Source: Candidatus Poribacteria bacterium (GTDB lineage Bacteria; Poribacteria; WGA-4E; WGA-3G). Taken from it: a stretch of DNA of 64,000 nucleotides. Location of the stretch: NCBI GenBank assembly GCA_022826805.1, contig JAJDUH010000012.1:43153-107152 (forward strand), read 5' to 3'. This document shows, one piece after another, positions 6,993 through 50,308 of the stretch. Both the position numbers and the translations under genes were made by a program. The notes below the pieces were generated by a model that worked only from the letters and a program-made list of their open reading frames with translations, was not told where the DNA came from and made no database searches. The first letter of the stretch is position 1; each line of letters starts with the position of its first letter.

Positions 6993-9900
6993 TTAGCGCG
7001 TCAGTGCGAGTTTGAGAAGTGCATACTCTGGTTCAAAACCATCTGCCACCATAATCTGACAGAAGTAGACGCCTCGAGCTAAATCTTCACCAGATGAACT
7101 GGTTCCGTCCCAACCGATTGCGTTCCTACCAATGTACTCGCCAGCGTCCCAAACCTCGTTATCCACAAGCACTCGTACCGGTCGAAGGGTCATATCGTAA
7201 ATGACGATACTCACCGTGGATTGTCGAGTCAGTGTGAAGGAGATACGAGTGTTCTCCTTGAACGGGTTAGGTGCATTAATTGGACGCGATGCCAATACTG
7301 GACCTTCCTCACTCTCAACAAAGAACGTAAACTCGTGGACTGCCATGTTCGCTTCGCGGGCACCACTGCTCTTCTCAGAGACGTTGCCCTCTTTCTGCGC
7401 CATGTCAGACACTTCAAGCTTGACTGTATGTTGTCCGAAAGCGAGATCGATATCTGGTGTGTACAGCACCTGCGATGCCGACTTCTGGTTCGACTTGAGG
7501 TTAATCAACCTGTCATCAAGAACGAAGCGGATTGAATCGACATCCACACCAGATTCAGCATCGGCGTAGGTTATCGAAATCTGCGGTCGGCGTTCGGTCA
7601 GACGTGCCTCATTTTGTGGTGATGACATTGTGATAACCGGAGCAGCAGTATCAAAGTCGATCGAGAAGGTGCCCTTCGCTGTGGCAGAATTGCCGATTGT
7701 ATCAGTTGCGCGAACCTCAATCGTGTAAGTCCCTTCATCAAGGGGTACCTCAGGAATGAAATCCAAACGCGTGATACCTTCGACATCGTCTTCGCCATCA
7801 TCTTCGGTATCGCCTTTCACCTCTTTACCGTCGCTATCCCACAGGACAATATCCATATCATCAACACCCGATTCATCGTTGGCACTCGCCGAGATTGTCG
7901 GGAGTCCACCACGGATGGTTCCTGTTGGAGTGATTGAGGTAATGGAAGGTGCGACATTATCGACCTCCAGTGTGAAAGTCCACGAATGTTGGGTTGTACC
8001 CCCTTCACTAATTGCGACGACCTTTACGGTGTGCGTGCCTGCTGTGAAGCTATCTGCTATCTCAACACGCCCTTGAGCGATTTGCGCGAGTGCGACGGAG
8101 CGGAACGGCTTATCGTTTACAGCAAACTTTGCACTGACAACCTTGGACTGCTCATCGGTAACAACCGCTGAGATTGTTACCCAACTATCACCCTTGACAA
8201 CTCCAGACGGAGCAACTTCAGAGATGACAGGTGGCGTTGTGTCTGTGACCACTGTGAAAGAGGTAGACGCTTGTGCTGTCTGACCGTCACCATCGGTGAC
8301 TTCAACAACAACGGTGTGCGCGCCACTGCTTAATGACGCAGTAGGTGTATGCGAGAATCGATTCCCATCTACCTCTGGTGTAGCATCTACACCGTCAACA
8401 GTAAACGTGGTTACCTCAAGATCGCCTGCTCCTGAAATCTCACCACTGATAAGCGGTTTGGTGTCCATGACGGATTGTCCGGAAGCCGGAGAGTGAATCA
8501 CAACAGCGGGTAATGTGCCGCTGATAGCAAATTCAACAGAAGCCTCACCAATGTTACCGAGAACATCGGCAACTTGAACGGTTGCGCGGTATGCACCACC
8601 GGGAAGTTGATCGCTGCGGGTGTAAACCAACGTCGATTCACTGCTTTCAATGGCACCTTGGTCGACCATAATATCCTGGTCACCTTGCTCGGGTAGTATC
8701 CTTGTCAATATAACAGTTGGTCCATCAGGAAGTTCCGTTGTTGCCCAAGCCAAGACCTCCTGACCAGAACTGTCAGGACCACTTCCTGCACCATCTTCAT
8801 AGGTAGCATGAACAGTTGGTAAACTATCCACTGTATGGTCCTCGATAGGGGTCTCAATCTTAATCATTGGACCAGTATTATCAAGGTTAATCATCGCCAA
8901 CGGGAAGGATACATAACCGTTCCATTGCGTAACCATACCTTCTGGTGTATAAGCACCATCGGGCAGTGCTGAAATTTCCATTACCGTAAGTGAGAAAGTT
9001 GTTTCTGGATCTTCCGCACCTTCACTGGCTATTGCAGCTCCATTAATGCTGGCACTCAGTTGATCAGCGGCTAACGAGCCGTTAGCAACCATGAAACCTA
9101 CAGTGAGTGAATCCCGGAGTGCGATCGGTTCAGCAGGGGATTCCGCTACATCTACACCGTCAACGGCTGTGACCGCCAAATCAGTGATATCAGCGAGTTG
9201 GAAGTTCACCACATGGACAGCGGTTTTCGGTGATTCATCAGTTTGAACATTACCAAATTCGTCAACTGCGAGCGCATGGAATATGTAAGTCCCATTTTCA
9301 AGCATTCCGACATCAACCGTAATGTCCAAAGCACCAACTTCACCTTCAATCACAGTTTCGTTACCATCAGCATCCGTTTGGATTAATCTCACAGATGCGT
9401 AGGTTTTCGGATCGGCTGTTGGCTCAGTGGTAAGCATATCCATCGGGGATGGAACCGTTTCATCAACAATTCCACCGACGATGTAACTTCCATCTTCATT
9501 TACTTCAACAGGTTGAGGAGCAACACCGTCGGCAACATTAGTGACAGCGACAATGTTTGTGGGACCTAACGGTGCCACATCGTCAACATTGTCAACCGAT
9601 AAGTGGCTTTTGACGGTTTCAGGTGCCGGCATTTCGCTAGCCTCAGTTATTGCGGATGCGGTCACCACATGCTGATTTTCATCTTTAGTAGCATCGCGAG
9701 CTGCGGGACTATCAGCAGTGATAGTATCCTCAAGAGCGGTCGTATCTACCTCAACTGTCCATTTTGCAAAGTTACCTGGCGGGTACTCTCGATAGATTGA
9801 GGCTTCCGCCATTCCAGCTGCTACAGCGTCAGCTGCGGTATGAACGAGATCATCAAGAAAATCGGCATTTCCTTCGAGTTCACTTAATTCTTCTGCCGTG

Positions 9901-44118: not shown

Positions 44119-45090
44119 ATGTACACTGTTATTCTTTTATCAGCCCGTAAAAATTCAGTCCGCCAGCATGCAGTTAGCCAAGGGCACTTACTGCTTTTCT
44201 CCTGCCTCATCCTTGCGCTATTTTTGACAGCGATCATCGGAATCGGCTACGGGATTTTTCAAAGGTATCAGAGAACCAAATCTGAGACAGAATTACAGGC
44301 AAACACAGAGGAAATGAAAAAATTAGTGCATGCCAAACTCCAAGTCGAATTGGAATTTGCTGCAGTTAATGAAGAGATGAATAGTATCCGCCACATGGCA
44401 GAAAAGATTCGGGAGGCTTTAGGAATTCTTGGACAAGGTGGCGGCGACAGTAGTATTCAGTGGAACCCCGAAGACGCCGAAAAACAAGCCAATCCCGAAC
44501 AGGAAGATACTTCAGCAATCACTGATGGTGAGCCTGATGTGCATGAGATGCCGGGATCAATAACACCCAGTATCCTAAAACAAGAGGTGCGGCCTCTCTA
44601 CAATTACGTCGGCGAACACCAAAAACAGATTGATGGATATCCTTCGATCCTACCGGTGGAACTCCAAAAGCCGGACGGAGAAAAACACGCTTTTTGGTAT
44701 TCCTCTCCGTTCGGGTGGCGCACACATCCATTAACAAGGAAACGCGAATTCCACCAAGGGTTGGATATTAAAACTCACGCAGGAGTCCCCGTTATCGCTG
44801 CCGCTGATGGAACAATCTTGAAGGCTAAAAGGAGCGGTTACTTGGGAAAGACAATCGAGATCTCCCATGATGGACGCCAGTTCAAAACGTTGTATGCGCA
44901 CTTGAAAGATTATGCAGATGGGATCAAAGTCGGGCAAAGAGTGACGCGTGGACAGATTATAGGTTACGTTGGAAACACGGGACGTAGCACTGGGGCACAT
45001 TTGCATTATAGTGTTTACGATGTCAGAAAAAAAAGGTGGGTGAACCCACTGGCGTACATCTTCGATCAGCAACCCACATTTTCACCTTAA
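44119..45090 (+). CDS. M23 (LytM-type) metalloendopeptidase, membrane anchored
   Basis: 323 residues. One helix (~23-48) anchors it with the rest in the periplasm; ~55-105 is a short coiled coil. The C-terminal domain (~190-318) has the LytM zinc ligands: FHQGLDI (H and D), and GAHLHYSVYDV (HxH), with FGWRTHPLTRKREF before them. It cuts peptidoglycan cross-bridges or, if paired with FtsEX-type partners, controls amidases. AAGGAG lies about 10 bases upstream of the ATG. All ligands are present, so it is likely active. Confidence 0.9.
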   Translation: MYTVILLSARKNSVRQHAVSQGHLLLFSCLILALFLTAIIGIGYGIFQRYQRTKSETELQANTEEMKKLVHAKLQVELEFAAVNEEMNSIRHMAEKIREALGILGQGGGDSSIQWNPEDAEKQANPEQEDTSAITDGEPDVHEMPGSITPSILKQEVRPLYNYVGEHQKQIDGYPSILPVELQKPDGEKHAFWYSSPFGWRTHPLTRKREFHQGLDIKTHAGVPVIAAADGTILKAKRSGYLGKTIEISHDGRQFKTLYAHLKDYADGIKVGQRVTRGQIIGYVGNTGRSTGAHLHYSVYDVRKKRWVNPLAYIFDQQPTFSP

Positions 45091-45208: not shown

Positions 45209-46546
45209 ATGTCCTACTTTAAGCCCCTACTTTGGGGGGCAGTCTTATGTCTTCTTGCACTTTCCCATCTCTCATTTGCCCAAGACGAACTCATCATTAT
45301 CTCCCCACATCCAGAAGGCATCGAAACAGAATTCGGCACAAGTTTTGAGAAATGGTACCAAGAACAGACCGGTAGAACAGTCAAGACCGACTGGCGAGAT
45401 GTGGGTGGTACCTCCTCTAATTACCGGTTTATCGAATCGGAGTTTAAAAGGGTGCCAGACGGTATTGGTATTGACATCTTTTTTGGTGGAGGCACTGACA
45501 ACTACCTCCGTCTCTCAAATATGGGCTGGCTGCACGCTTACAAGCTGCCTGATGCACAACTCAAGCAGATGATGCAATCCTTCCAAGGAATCCCGCTCTA
45601 TGACGCTGAACATCAATGGTACGGCGCAGCACTGTCCAGCTTCGGTATCATGTACAACGATGAACTTCGTGAAATGCTCCAACTCCCCAAAGCCACAGCA
45701 TGGCAGGATTTAGGCGACTTTGCCTTACTCGGTAAAATTGGTGCAGCCGATCCGAGAGAAAGCGGTTCTGCACACATGGTGTACGAGATTATCCTTCAAA
45801 CCGTCGGCTGGGAAGAAGGCTTTGCACTCCTGACCAAAATCGGTGGCAATGTCCGAGGCTTCTCCGCTGGTGCTAATGCTATTCCGACAGACGTCGTCGC
45901 TGGACAGGTCATTTATGGACTGGCGATTGATTTTTACGCATACGGACAAATTGCTGTTATTGGTGCGGACAAAATTAAATACACCGTGCCAGCCGATGGT
46001 GCGGTTGTCACCGCAGATCCAATTGCTATCCTTAAAGGCGCACCGAATCTTCCAGTTGCGCAAAAGTTTCTTGAATTTGTTCTGTCGGGCGATGCGCAGA
46101 AACTCTGGATGCTCCGAAATGACGATCCGGAGGGACCTAAGTGGAAAGGTGGTTTGAACCGAGCGAGTGTCCTGCCAACACTCTATGATAAACTCGGCGA
46201 ACGATGCATCGTTCCAAATCCGTTTGCTATGGAAGGAACACCATTTCAATACGACTCAGATAAAGGCGGTAATCGGTGGAATATTGTCAACGATCTCTTC
46301 GGTGTGCTCATTATCGATTCCCATAAAGATCTCGTCAACGCTTGGAAAGCGATCCGAAAGTGTAAAGATCCGGCGAAGCGCGAAGCGGCGATTGCGGTTC
46401 TCACGAAGATGCCTATTACCGAAGAAGAAGCGATGCAGATGGCAACCGCCGCCTGGAAAGATCCGAGCATTCGTAACGAAAAAATCAAGGAATGGGGACA
46501 ATTCGCCAAAGAGAAGTTCAAAGAGGCACGGAATCTGGCAAAATAG
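45209..46546 (+). CDS. ABC-type extracellular solute-binding protein (iron/spermidine class)
   Basis: 445 residues with AAGGAG before the ATG and a signal peptide (~1-24, LLALSHLSFAQ). It has the two-lobe binding-protein pattern: ELIIISPHPEGIETEFGTSF, FFGGGTD, YGAALSSFGIMYN, and a hinge near YGLAIDFYAY. The family binds Fe(III), polyamines, thiamine or sulfonates in the periplasm. No permease or ATPase gene adjoins it, so it is an orphan here. The last ~70 residues exceed the usual length. It converges on the sigma-clamp gene with a 62-base gap and no obvious terminator. Confidence 0.85.
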   Translation: MSYFKPLLWGAVLCLLALSHLSFAQDELIIISPHPEGIETEFGTSFEKWYQEQTGRTVKTDWRDVGGTSSNYRFIESEFKRVPDGIGIDIFFGGGTDNYLRLSNMGWLHAYKLPDAQLKQMMQSFQGIPLYDAEHQWYGAALSSFGIMYNDELREMLQLPKATAWQDLGDFALLGKIGAADPRESGSAHMVYEIILQTVGWEEGFALLTKIGGNVRGFSAGANAIPTDVVAGQVIYGLAIDFYAYGQIAVIGADKIKYTVPADGAVVTADPIAILKGAPNLPVAQKFLEFVLSGDAQKLWMLRNDDPEGPKWKGGLNRASVLPTLYDKLGERCIVPNPFAMEGTPFQYDSDKGGNRWNIVNDLFGVLIIDSHKDLVNAWKAIRKCKDPAKREAAIAVLTKMPITEEEAMQMATAAWKDPSIRNEKIKEWGQFAKEKFKEARNLAK

Positions 46547-46608: not shown

Positions 46609-48351
46609 TTATGCCCAAGCCGTATCCAAAAGCAACGGCATGACGAGGAAAACATATCCATCATCCCCTACGGGTTTAATAAGGACAGGTTCCAATTCCT
46701 TTGTCAATTCGATAGACACGAACTCGGTATCAACGTGATCCAATGCCTCTATCAACAAGCGAGCATCAAAACCGATCCTCACACTTCCGATACCAGACAC
46801 CACAGGCACTGTTTCATGTACTTCCGCTAATTCTGGGGTCCTTGTGGATACCCGAATGCGTTCTGTATCAATCTCTAAACAGATCGCATGGTTTTTCGGA
46901 TTTGACCGCAGCGCTATGCGCCGCGTTACACTCAAAATCTGGTCTTTTGAAACGACCGTTTTGCCTGTACTCGTCTTCGGTATGATTTTCTGATAGTTTG
47001 GATACTCCCTATCCACAAGTTGGGTCGTTAAGGTAGCATTTCCATCGGTAAAGCAGATTTCATTCTCAAAAATAGAGATGTCTACTTCAATAGATTCTGG
47101 GAAAGTTCTCGGAATCTCTTTGACTGCCTTGAGTGGAACGATAAACCCGTTGATTTCCGCTCGTGCGTTGAGTGAGTCGCACTGTGTGAGAGCAAGACGT
47201 TTGCCATCAGTAGCGACGACTTCTGTTCTGTCTTTAAGGAAGTTAAAGTAGAGACCGCTTAGGAAAGGGCGAGCCTTCTCCGTAGATGCAGCATACGCCG
47301 TTTTTTGGATGACATCACGCAAGGTTTCTCCTGCAATCGACAGGATCTCACCCTCAGCAGAAGGCAGTTGTGTGGACTCTTCACCAGGCCTCCCGATAAT
47401 TTTGTAAACACCATCGCCGCAGGTAATCTCAATGCTGTCTTTGGCTGCCACTACTAAATCTATCGGTTTATCCGCTGGCAACTTTTTAAGAACATCCACC
47501 AATTTCTTGGAGGGGACAGTAATTGTCCCTTCGGTTTTCACTGTCCCTTCAACGTTCATTTTCACGTTGACTTCCAAATCAATTGTATCCCCTTCGGCAC
47601 GGATGAGAACATCTGAGAGGATAGGCGAAGTATTCTGTCCATCCCTAACCCCTTGCAGTGCTTGCAAAAACAGCAAAAGTTCATCTCTTTCAAAGGTAAA
47701 TTCCATTCCATAATCCTCCTTAATTTTCTCTGGTGATGGCTCGGATATTTTTTCCCCACGCGCCATAACTCTTCTAGACCCAACTTCTTCAACACCGAAT
47801 TCCTCGCGCAGAAGTGTACGAATATCTCTGAGCCTTGTCTTAACGGTGCCGACCGCCAAGTCAAGTTCTTCCGCAATTTCTTTGACTGTCCACATCTCCA
47901 AATAGTACCGGACTGCGACAGTGCGTACCTTTTCTGGAAGGTGATGGACTGCCGCTGTTACCTCGGCGCGAAGTTCCGCTTCTCGAAAATGGGCAATGAC
48001 ATCCCGATCAATAGTCTCAGCAAGTTTCTCCGTGCTCTGAAGAATTTCACCTCCGGTGTGCGACTTGGGAGTGTAGTATCTTCTACAAGCCGTGTACGCT
48101 ATCTTGCTGAGCCACGCACCGAAACTGCTAACTTCGCGTAAAGTTCCGATGTTCTCCCAAACCGACACCCAAATGTCTTGAAAGATCTCTTCGGCATCCC
48201 GTGTCTGGCGAGAGTTTAATACAACCAACTGCCAGATCCGGAAACTATGGCGTGCTGCCAATTGCGCAAATGCCAACTCATCTTCTGTTTGCACAAGCTG
48301 AATGAGTTCCTCATCTGTCAGATCAGTGTGTGTTGATGAATCGTATCGCAT
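46609..48351 (-). CDS. dnaN: ECF sigma factor fused to DNA polymerase III beta sliding clamp
   Basis: One uninterrupted 580-codon frame. Residues ~12-92 are sigma region 2 (RDAEEIFQDIWVSVWENI, SSFGAWLSKIAYTACRRYY); ~126-185 are region 4 (LPEKVRTVAVRYYLEMW, then VKEIAEELDLAVGTVKTRL), the helix-turn-helix that reads the -35 box. A ~30-residue polar linker follows, then residues 216-580 form a full-length beta clamp: MEFTFERDELLLFLQALQG, SPILSDVLI, ARPFLSGLYFNF, ATDGKRLALT, and the end EPVLIKPVGDDGYVFLVMPL. The clamp encircles DNA as the polymerase processivity ring; joined to a sigma factor it could tether RNA polymerase to DNA. A strong internal start at 47706 could make the clamp alone. The sigma start has only a weak ribosome site. 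A sequencing indel joining two genes cannot be excluded. Confidence 0.85.
   Translation of the reverse strand: MRYDSSTHTDLTDEELIQLVQTEDELAFAQLAARHSFRIWQLVVLNSRQTRDAEEIFQDIWVSVWENIGTLREVSSFGAWLSKIAYTACRRYYTPKSHTGGEILQSTEKLAETIDRDVIAHFREAELRAEVTAAVHHLPEKVRTVAVRYYLEMWTVKEIAEELDLAVGTVKTRLRDIRTLLREEFGVEEVGSRRVMARGEKISEPSPEKIKEDYGMEFTFERDELLLFLQALQGVRDGQNTSPILSDVLIRAEGDTIDLEVNVKMNVEGTVKTEGTITVPSKKLVDVLKKLPADKPIDLVVAAKDSIEITCGDGVYKIIGRPGEESTQLPSAEGEILSIAGETLRDVIQKTAYAASTEKARPFLSGLYFNFLKDRTEVVATDGKRLALTQCDSLNARAEINGFIVPLKAVKEIPRTFPESIEVDISIFENEICFTDGNATLTTQLVDREYPNYQKIIPKTSTGKTVVSKDQILSVTRRIALRSNPKNHAICLEIDTERIRVSTRTPELAEVHETVPVVSGIGSVRIGFDARLLIEALDHVDTEFVSIELTKELEPVLIKPVGDDGYVFLVMPLLLDTAWA
47704..47721 (-). 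promoter_or_regulatory. internal ribosome site and ATG at the sigma-clamp junction
   Basis: AAGGAGG (47721-47715, minus strand) lies eight bases before an in-frame ATG at 47706, exactly where a stand-alone clamp would begin (MEFTFERDE). Initiation here gives a 365-residue clamp, close to the 366 residues of E. coli DnaN. This suggests two products from one frame. Confidence 0.7.
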
Positions 48352-48431
48352 AGAAAATTCCCAATTAGATTTCGGTTATAAAGAGGGGGGTTTTTGGAGA
48401 AAAGGTTTAAAAAAAGGAAAATAATTAGCAC

Positions 48432-49547
48432 TTATCGCCGCCGTGATGCCATGTCAAACCCTACTGCTGCAACCAGCACGACACCCTTGATAATATCCTG
48501 CCACGAGGCATCCATGTTCGCCATGCTCATCCCGTTATTGAGACTCTCCATGACGAATGCCCCTAAAATCGCACCGAAGATACTCCCGCGTCCACCCATC
48601 AAACTGGCACCGCCGATGACACACGCAGCGATGGCATCCAACTCCAGCAATCGTCCGGCTTCTGGACTTGCGCTCCCAACGCGTGCCGTTAGCACAACAC
48701 CAGCAACCGCCATTAATACTCCCATCGTTGCAAATACCCGTAACGTGATGCCACGCACGTTGACCCCGGAGAGGTAAGCCGCTTCGGCGTTTCCCCCGAC
48801 TGCATAGACATAACGTCCAAAACGGGTGTGGTTGGCGATGAAATGAAATACGAATGCCAGTCCAAATAGAATGCATACCGGAAATGGCACACCTTTATGG
48901 GCATTCATTACGGTGATGAACGCTACAATCAGTGCCGATATGCCAACTATTTTCCACAGAAAGATGCTTGGCGATGTTTTTTCGGTGCCATATTGTAGTT
49001 GAGCAGCGCGCTGTCGGTAAAAACGGTACCCACTGACACCAAGTCCAGCAATCATGAGTCCCCATCCGAGTGTCGGGGAGAGGTAGGCGTTTCCGATTGC
49101 TTTGAGCCAATTGTCTGGAAGCAGGATGGTTTCGCCTTTGGTAAAGGCTAACATTAAACCGCGATACACTAAAAACCCACCTAATGTGACAATAAATGCT
49201 GGGATCCGTTGGTATGCCACGAGATAACCCTGCATCAATCCCATCAGAATCCCGACGCAAATGACAACGATGAGTGTTAGGAGGATCGGTTGGCCCCACC
49301 AGACGTGTACAATCGCGGCAATGGCACCGAGCAATCCGGCACCATAACCGACAGACAGATCAATATTAGCAGAGACAATAACCAGCGTCATGCCGACGGC
49401 GAGGATGGCTGTGACCGCCGCTTGGCGGGAGAGGTTGGACAGATTCCGAGTGCTGAGGAAGGTGCCGCCGGTCAGGAGTGTAAAAATCACCCAGACACAG
49501 ACGAGGGCAAGCACCATTGCATACATGCGAAGATTCAGGTGCTTCAT
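48432..49547 (-). CDS. sugar ABC transporter permease (XylH/RbsC type)
   Basis: 371 residues, about ten membrane helices. LAVGMTLVIVSANIDLSVG near the N-terminus, and YAVGGNAEAAYLSGVNVRGI, LELDAIAACVIGGASLMGG, GRGSIFGAILGAFVMESL near the C-terminus, match BPD_transp_2 permeases. The long central segment and the phrase after ELDAIAACVIGG resemble xylose permease XylH most. No binding protein or ATPase gene adjoins it. Its ATG overlaps the tatD stop by four bases (ATGA). The sigma-clamp gene starts 80 bases downstream on the same strand and might share the transcript. Confidence 0.85.
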   Translation of the reverse strand: MKHLNLRMYAMVLALVCVWVIFTLLTGGTFLSTRNLSNLSRQAAVTAILAVGMTLVIVSANIDLSVGYGAGLLGAIAAIVHVWWGQPILLTLIVVICVGILMGLMQGYLVAYQRIPAFIVTLGGFLVYRGLMLAFTKGETILLPDNWLKAIGNAYLSPTLGWGLMIAGLGVSGYRFYRQRAAQLQYGTEKTSPSIFLWKIVGISALIVAFITVMNAHKGVPFPVCILFGLAFVFHFIANHTRFGRYVYAVGGNAEAAYLSGVNVRGITLRVFATMGVLMAVAGVVLTARVGSASPEAGRLLELDAIAACVIGGASLMGGRGSIFGAILGAFVMESLNNGMSMANMDASWQDIIKGVVLVAAVGFDMASRRR

Positions 49548-50308
49548 GCTTGTGCGAACAGAATCTCAAAATTTCTTGTTGTTGCTTCGCCAATTGTTTC
49601 TATAGAGGTGCTACGGAGTTCGGCAATCTTTTCCGCAACGGCACGCACATAAGCAGGCTCGTTCCGCTTGCCGCGGCGAAATTGCGGTGTCAACCATGGG
49701 CAATCGGTCTCTATGAGGAGTCGATCCTCAGGCACTTCCTGCGCGACGGCTTGGATGTCTTTGGCATTCGGATAGGTCACAATTCCACCGATGCCGATAT
49801 GGAATCCGATCGCAAGGCTTCTATGCATCAACGCTACATCACCGGTAAAGCAGTGCAGCACACCTCGAATTCTCCCGTGACGTGCCTCTAAGATGGGTAG
49901 GATGTCCACATACGCGTCACGGTTGTGGATAATAATAGGCATCCGCAGCTCTTCGGCGAGATCCAATTGCTTTTCAAACGCCTCTTTTTGTAGCGGACGC
50001 GGTGAGAGGTCCCGGTAGTAATCTAACCCCATTTCGCCGAGCGCAATTACCTTTGGATGTGTAGCGAGTTCGCGAAAAGTTTTAAGGGCATCCGGTGTTA
50101 GATATTTTGCGTCGTGCGGATGCATCCCGACGGTGGCGTAGATTTGTGTATATTCCTCCGCTAATTCCACTGCACCGAGACTGGTCTCCATATCAAATCC
50201 GATGACGAGGATAGCAGAGATTCCTACTTCCTGTGCGCGTTTTAGCACCGCATCACGGTCACCATCGAATTGGGAAAGTTGAATGTGCGCATGCGAGTCA
50301 ATAAACAT
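49544..50308 (-). CDS. tatD: TatD family metal-dependent hydrolase/DNase
   Basis: 254 residues, full length. Metal ligands: FIDSHAHIQ (HxH) at the N-terminus, LGEMGLDYYRD (Glu), IIIHNRD (His), VLHCFTGD (His) and LLIETDCPWLTP (Asp). TatD proteins are 3'-5' exonucleases on DNA/RNA and are linked to repair and to D-aminoacyl-tRNA handling. A poly-T stretch precedes the ATG rather than a good ribosome site. Its stop overlaps the permease start. Confidence 0.92.
   Translation of the reverse strand: MFIDSHAHIQLSQFDGDRDAVLKRAQEVGISAILVIGFDMETSLGAVELAEEYTQIYATVGMHPHDAKYLTPDALKTFRELATHPKVIALGEMGLDYYRDLSPRPLQKEAFEKQLDLAEELRMPIIIHNRDAYVDILPILEARHGRIRGVLHCFTGDVALMHRSLAIGFHIGIGGIVTYPNAKDIQAVAQEVPEDRLLIETDCPWLTPQFRRGKRNEPAYVRAVAEKIAELRSTSIETIGEATTRNFEILFAQA

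Follow-up and report, generated by a model that had tools for sequence, protein, structure and literature searches.

In the late transcription of bacteriophage T4, a sigma-type protein, gp55, works with the sliding clamp, gp45. Plant immune receptors with integrated decoys couple a signalling protein to exchangeable copies of attacked host proteins, which act as bait. Among bacterial transcription factors, ECF sigma factors can carry C-terminal extensions, and those described are cysteine-rich, SnoaL-like, TPR or WD40-like (PMC8999054). Natural antibiotics are reported to act on the clamp and on DnaE, the producers carry an extra DnaN (mypR, griR) or an extra DnaE (narR/ngnU) for self-resistance, and the extra DnaE of narR/ngnU has been proposed to act as a decoy (PMC10817943, PMC8922275). 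Our search of the open-licence literature returned no report of a sigma-clamp or sigma-FtsZ fusion or of Poribacteria sigma factors, and nothing relevant on integrated decoys in bacteria; within that literature, the architecture analyzed here is without a named precedent, as the preliminary description had supposed.

We analyze a gene in which an ECF sigma factor and a full clamp share one reading frame, located in a 64,000-nucleotide stretch of Candidatus Poribacteria DNA (hereafter, the window) that is part of contig C31 of a 5.09 Mb genome (G000). The gene (46609..48351) lies on the minus strand, starts with ATG and encodes 580 amino acids, and the plus-strand reading of the same interval is interrupted by stops. 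Pfam places Sigma70_r2 at residues 48-94 and Sigma70_r4_2 at residues 130-178, within an ECF sigma module of residues 1-195 (47767..48351), and DNA_pol3_beta domains I, II and III at residues 216-325 (47377..47706), 339-452 (46996..47337) and 455-573 (46633..46989), each above its cut-off. NCBIfam adds matches to TIGR00663 dnaN (222 bits, cut-off 138) and TIGR02937 sigma70-ECF (70 bits, cut-off 43), and the sigma matches of Pfam and TIGR02937 fall within residues 27-184. The sigma half matches solved ECF sigma factors, and the clamp half is a fold match to DnaN structures. Between the two lies a linker of residues 196-215 (47707..47766) that is predicted to be disordered, with pLDDT <30 in residues 191-210. 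An AlphaFold model of the fusion (40-row alignment, mean pLDDT 68.5, pTM 0.44) backs the clamp fold and the looseness of the linker but is no firm guide to sigma-clamp contacts. Pfam, NCBIfam and the orthologues described below thus confirm the earlier claim that an ECF sigma factor and a complete clamp occupy a single frame, on the minus strand.

Among 60 relatives searched, five other genomes of the genus have full-length orthologues, with identities of 65-81%; those of G022 (81%) and G029 (72%) come from genomes of one contig each, and the same architecture is also present at full length in G023, G012, G032 and G060. The preliminary description had raised the possibilities of an assembly indel that removed a stop and of a chance read-through. 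We reject both, since single-contig genomes hold intact orthologues and the family is large. Two A-type pairs (the window's type) have measurable whole-length divergence, and in them dN/dS stays within 0.14-0.37 throughout: the sigma half has 0.15-0.18, clamp domain I 0.33-0.37, domain II 0.17-0.26 and domain III 0.14-0.20, versus 0.03-0.10 in five pairs of stand-alone clamps. On these ratios, both halves of the fusion show purifying selection, and in most pairs the sigma half is constrained at least as strongly as its partner. No stop was found between codons 185 and 216, and close relatives carry the fusion. G000 also has two stand-alone dnaN genes (on C57 and C3; 369 and 370 aa) and a second sigma-clamp fusion of 460 aa on C28 that lacks clamp domain III. 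Within a few bases downstream of this second fusion (L003, 895-2277), an ABC-2 permease gene starts.

A second kind of fusion (B-type), at 40-47% identity to the window's, occurs in many more of the 60 relatives. Protein search listed 38 A-type sigma-clamp proteins, the window's own included. Among the frames fetched, the A-type is found in 8 genomes (the G025 copy lacking domain I) and the B-type in 26 (the G000 copy lacking domain III), so that at least 33 of the 38 genomes of the genus carry one or the other by these frames, the relatives not being independent in this count or in the promoter and ribosome-binding-site counts below. In nine genomes of the sister family, no sigma-clamp fusion was found at the threshold used; six of these genomes have one stand-alone clamp, one has fragments, and two have no match at the threshold. 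In a clamp tree of 111 sequences, the 41 A rows, which count the window's own and include near-duplicates, form one group and the 48 B rows another, with support of 100 each by a quick method without bootstrap, as used for the sigma tree also. The A group adjoins the stand-alone dnaN type found on C3 and the B group that found on C57, and the sigma halves of A and B come from different families. We therefore reject a single origin: the fusion arose at least twice. The suggestion of a lineage-specific dnaN duplication, raised earlier as an alternative, is borne out by the clamp tree as the origin of the clamp half. Stand-alone dnaN genes can also stand in tandem, as in locus L042 (3986-6329), with similar tandems in several other genomes.

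Functional sites were assigned from lists for E. coli DnaN, DnaE and FtsZ, and R24, the K73 equivalent and Y153 of DnaN are taken to be DNA-contact residues. Domain II of the clamp half carries part of the peptide-binding cleft, and domain III the rest of it together with one side of the ring interface. At the 13 cleft sites, A-type fusions keep the residue of the stand-alone clamps with a frequency of 0.92 versus 0.74 for equally conserved columns (P 0.006), and retention at 16 DNA-contact and interface sites is 0.60 (P 0.03). Counting only non-redundant A-type rows in which the position is present, no row keeps R24 or Y153, and a fraction of 0.19 keeps K73. At the interface, positions 96, 272, 299 and 300 are changed and 74, 106-108, 298, 301 and 304 are kept, so that ring formation by the A-type clamp is only made unlikely. 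The B-type has lost DNA-contact and interface residues independently of A (retention 0.50, P 0.006). Domain I, in which DNA-contact positions of the window gene are changed, is absent altogether from six of ten A-type proteins checked in full (P0010, P0025, P0033, P0035, P0036, P0038), the frame remaining open into domains II-III; one other of the ten lacks the sigma start. These six proteins occupy four places in the clamp tree, and the loss of domain I thus happened more than once; a clamp without it could not close the usual six-domain ring. Although its score is that of a DnaN, the clamp half fails the DNA-contact test and does not deserve the name of a working sliding clamp.

The same sigma factor also occurs with partners other than the clamp. 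The A-type sigma half is 72-78% identical to the fronts of proteins that continue as FtsZ, as FtsZ followed by a DnaE core, or as PurC, and the exchange takes place at a locus with constant flanks, TatD and permease genes before it and substrate-binding protein and M23 peptidase genes after it. In the window, the ORF list and locus comparison place these neighbors, named by similarity, as follows: upstream on the minus strand, a permease gene (48432..49547) and a TatD-like hydrolase gene (49544..50308), and downstream, convergent on the plus strand, an ABC substrate-binding-like protein gene (45209..46546) and an M23-peptidase-like gene (44119..45090). The partner at this locus is DnaN in G000, G022 and G025, FtsZ alone in L043, L044, L048 and L055, and FtsZ-DnaE in most of the other loci read (with frames broken in G015 and G031); in L046, a second sigma-FtsZ gene comes after a PurC fusion. 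Another set of A-sigma genes is joined to the GTPase part of FtsZ only (short sigma-FtsZ, 36 of 38 genomes), and a third to WD40 repeats. The sigma tree nests the clamp group within FtsZ groups and has 14 changes of partner label, a count that treats loss of clamp domain I as its own label. Between the sigma-FtsZ genes of G007 and G019 (L135, L158), dS is 0.035 for the sigma halves and 0.87 for the FtsZ halves, as if recombination had replaced the partner.

A stand-alone FtsZ of ~435 aa is listed in 36 of the 38 genomes (not G008, G028) and a stand-alone DnaE likewise in 36 (not G023, G003), the four exceptions being incomplete genomes; the fused ones are thus extra copies. The fused DnaE keeps its catalytic aspartates, and 18 of its 20 rows have no residue aligned to the clamp-binding motif. 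The short fused FtsZ stops before the catalytic loop in all 36 rows, and the long one has the GTP motif in 28/28 and mostly keeps the catalytic loop.

Seemingly unknown giant sigma proteins of ~1430 aa turned out to be sigma-FtsZ-DnaE proteins, and the idea that any gene may land behind a sigma factor was dropped because most of the other long sigma frames examined in G000 seem, by eye, to be membrane-spanning or repeat proteins. A frame of 1745 aa in G003 (L106, 4915-10149) adds to sigma-FtsZ-DnaE a stretch named by eye as glutamine-amidotransferase-like. The 6.7 Mb genome G005 has 102 matches to sigma region 2, many within frames of 400-1200 aa, and in L120, L123, L124 and L127 the B-type sigma and B-fusion linker are joined to another C-terminal domain of ~200 aa.

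In the window gene, the clamp half begins with a candidate second start (47704..47721, minus strand), consisting of a ribosome-binding site AAGGAGG (47721-47715), a spacer of 8 nt and an in-frame ATG (47706-47704, codon 216). A ribosome-binding site 4-10 nt before the partner's in-frame ATG is found in 101 of 108 distinct fusion frames when, of up to four ATGs in each linker, the best-scoring one is counted, and in 101 of 107 with one fixed ATG each, versus 50 of 1144 other in-frame ATGs of the same genes. Synonymous-codon resampling gives expected counts of 7.9 for B-clamp fusions (27/28 observed), 21.3 for A-FtsZ (60/64) and 4.5 for A-clamp (7/7); for matches of at least 5 nt, the A-FtsZ group shows no excess (6 vs 8.0 expected). 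This conservation suggests two products, the fusion and a free sigma-less partner, and would fit a dnaN captured along with its own ribosome-binding site.

A promoter-like element, TTTAAACC-N18-CTCTTTA (48379..48411, minus strand), ends 27 nt before the start codon of the window gene and is common to A-sigma genes whatever their partner. With at most two mismatches, it precedes 77 of the 80 A-sigma genes whose partner is identified (a partnerless fragment with 7 mismatches was left out of the 80). Its distance to the ATG is 25-55 nt, with one exception, and the three genes that lack it are a clamp fusion, an FtsZ fusion and a short FtsZ fusion. It is found in the 160 nt upstream of none of 50 B-type sigma genes and in none of 2640 shuffled upstream regions, and the ten exact matches in four genomes all lie before A-sigma genes. 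We infer that the A sigma reads this promoter. In G022 (L102, ~8780-9060), a second copy of the element lies 164 bp upstream of the fusion and is followed by an apparent decayed A-sigma start, possibly the scar of a partner replacement by duplication and deletion.

The candidate regulon was read from 60 further sites, hand-picked among the matches listed. This choice passed over sites that directly precede known A-sigma genes, four that belong to the four-genome set above, and a further five (G024:C16:22911, G001:C13:57529, G001:C59:25395, G018:C1:675377, G018:C1:4240767). All 60 were examined: 22 stand before MacB genes, 5 before ABC-2 permease genes, 7 before genes for a secreted WD40 type, 6 before B-like sigma genes and 2 before A-sigma fusions, while 6 lie inside a frame, 7 before something else and 5 before nothing found. 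Of the 60, 24 are exact, of which 2 stand before A-sigma genes (L242, chosen for a one-mismatch site, was scored by its better site before an A-sigma gene) and 1 at a contig end; the other 21 comprise 9 MacB-type, 5 ABC-2 permease, 5 secreted WD40-type and 2 other genes. The 36 one-mismatch sites comprise 13 MacB, 6 B-like sigma and 2 WD40-type genes and 15 in-frame, other or empty cases. Two genomes were counted for MacB matches and have 17 and 15, so a share of 9 in 21 greatly exceeds what chance would give (4e-17 in a simple binomial assuming 4500 genes and ignoring relatedness). A one-mismatch site lies between tandem MacB genes in G022, and at a comparable place the sigma-clamp gene itself stands beside MacB genes in G029, G012, G023 and G060. 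In 12 genomes (G001, G005-G010, G017, G018, G024, G027, G031), a B-type sigma-clamp gene, two ABC-2 permease genes and a sigma-FtsZ gene follow in series on one strand. The WD40-type protein preceded by the element is conserved, secreted and ~650 aa long (L207, L217, L219, L223, L229).

The explanation we favor, tentatively and with somewhat less than even confidence, is that the fused clamp is a bait: its ligand, probably a molecule acting against the real clamp or docking on it, would activate the sigma factor and with it the fusion gene itself and MacB and ABC-2 exporters. The sigma factor would control its own gene (autoregulation) and export genes, and the partner domain would decide when it acts, in the manner of a one-component switch. 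As a swappable copy of an essential protein, the bait would sense ligands or inhibitors of the original, and the internal start would yield free partner protein to tune or titrate the signal. The ligand would be an inhibitor, such as a cleft-binding antibiotic or a phage peptide, and not a normal clamp client. Partner control of the sigma factor, the role of the free partner, the identity of the ligand and the export output are all parts that we infer. A pocket kept on a body that is probably unable to do the machine's work points to sensing, and a bait is favored because the clamp and DnaE are antibiotic targets, producers keep spare copies, and exporters would be a sensible output. Also counted in its favor are the swap of partners at one locus, the loss of domain I with the frame kept, and the promoter shared among partners. 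Several observations count against it. The B-type cleft is retained at 0.67 versus 0.72 for other columns, no exporter adjoins the window gene, and PurC is not known to be an antibiotic target. Given the motifs kept in the long FtsZ and the catalytic residues kept in DnaE, not every partner is disabled. The WD40-type proteins make the inferred regulon wider than exporters, and the six B-like sigma genes have their one-mismatch site farther upstream than 160 nt. With at most one mismatch there are 156 sites in the 38 genomes versus 73 for the reversed pattern, so the one-mismatch sites include chance ones.

The precedent of T4 late transcription gives one alternative, a covalent version of gp55-gp45 in which the fused clamp is loaded on DNA and promoters are activated in cis. 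The window gene does have all three clamp domains, part of the interface is kept (74, 106-108, 298, 301, 304), and the internal start could provide a sigma-less partner for a mixed ring. However, the A-type has lost R24, Y153 and K73 and is changed at 96, 272, 299 and 300, the B-type has lost its DNA-contact and interface sites too, six proteins lack domain I, and the same sigma factor also has FtsZ or PurC as a partner. A T4-like loaded clamp, the mechanism put forward in the preliminary description, is thus unsupported, and we consider the clamp as a DNA tether very unlikely. The main rival to a bait is instead a sensor of cell state, in which the partner would watch the cell's own machinery and tie the output of the sigma factor to replication or division: free proteins with a clamp-binding motif (polymerases, mismatch repair) would bind in the cleft, and FtsZ and DnaE would read division or nucleotide state. 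All partners except PurC and WD40 are replication or division proteins, their pockets are kept, and fusions as nearly universal as short sigma-FtsZ would suit a core function. Yet exporters would be an odd output for cell-cycle coupling, PurC does not fit, and the repeated exchange of partners at one locus suggests a changing target and not a fixed cell-cycle input. We consider this alternative somewhat unlikely.

The fusion might also involve no sensing at all: dnaN, ftsZ and other genes would have been captured behind a sigma gene along with their own ribosome-binding sites. The internal start would then yield the working product, a free partner under a stress promoter, and the fused form would be tolerated. 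The conserved internal ribosome-binding sites speak for this, and additional copies of a target can by themselves give protection from inhibitors (PMC10817943, PMC8922275). Against such a capture, both halves are held in frame under purifying selection in many genomes, and in most pairs the partner is no more constrained than the sigma half; without domain I, a clamp copy would hardly be usable as a free clamp, and the longer ribosome-binding-site matches of the A-FtsZ group show no excess. On balance, it appears unlikely.

A bait would have consequences beyond this gene. In the broader proposal, which we regard as doubtful, these proteins are target-mimic sigma factors with exchangeable baits (clamp, polymerase III alpha, FtsZ, PurC) that are also released as free bait, and an antibiotic or a phage inhibitor directed against the real protein would be detected and pumped out. 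If so, they would parallel, in bacteria, the immune receptors with integrated decoys, each partner would point to a protein that chemicals or phages attack in these sponge symbionts, and the fusions would be ready-made biosensors for inhibitors of the clamp, the polymerase and FtsZ.

Among the known systems, DnaN itself (TIGR00663) shares with the clamp half the three domains, a score above the cut-off and, in the A-type, the cleft; it differs in that the DNA-contact residues and part of the ring interface of the fusion are replaced and that some members lack domain I. T4 gp55 and gp45 likewise pair a sigma-type protein with a sliding clamp, whereas here the two are covalently fused, the clamp is unlikely to hold DNA, and the sigma factor also joins FtsZ, DnaE and PurC. 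Unlike the integrated decoys of plants, the fusion is bacterial, its output is a transcription factor and its ligand is only postulated. The griR, mypR and narR/ngnU genes resemble it as spare copies of an antibiotic target, one of them proposed as a decoy, but are stand-alone genes near biosynthetic clusters, whereas the Poribacteria copy is fused to a transcription factor (PMC10817943, PMC8922275). ECF sigma factors with a C-terminal regulatory extension share regions 2 and 4 followed by a C-terminal domain in one frame, and the extension is expected to take a sensory role (PMC8999054); the neighbors of the fusion, as named by similarity, are permease, TatD-like, substrate-binding and M23 genes, with no anti-sigma gene seen among them. 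The described extensions differ from the one analyzed here, which duplicates an essential enzyme or a component of a cellular machine and is exchanged at one locus. Sensory tails on ECF sigma factors are thus known, and none of the open-licence papers that our search returned describes a tail that duplicates an essential replication or division protein and is swapped at a single locus for another such duplicate.
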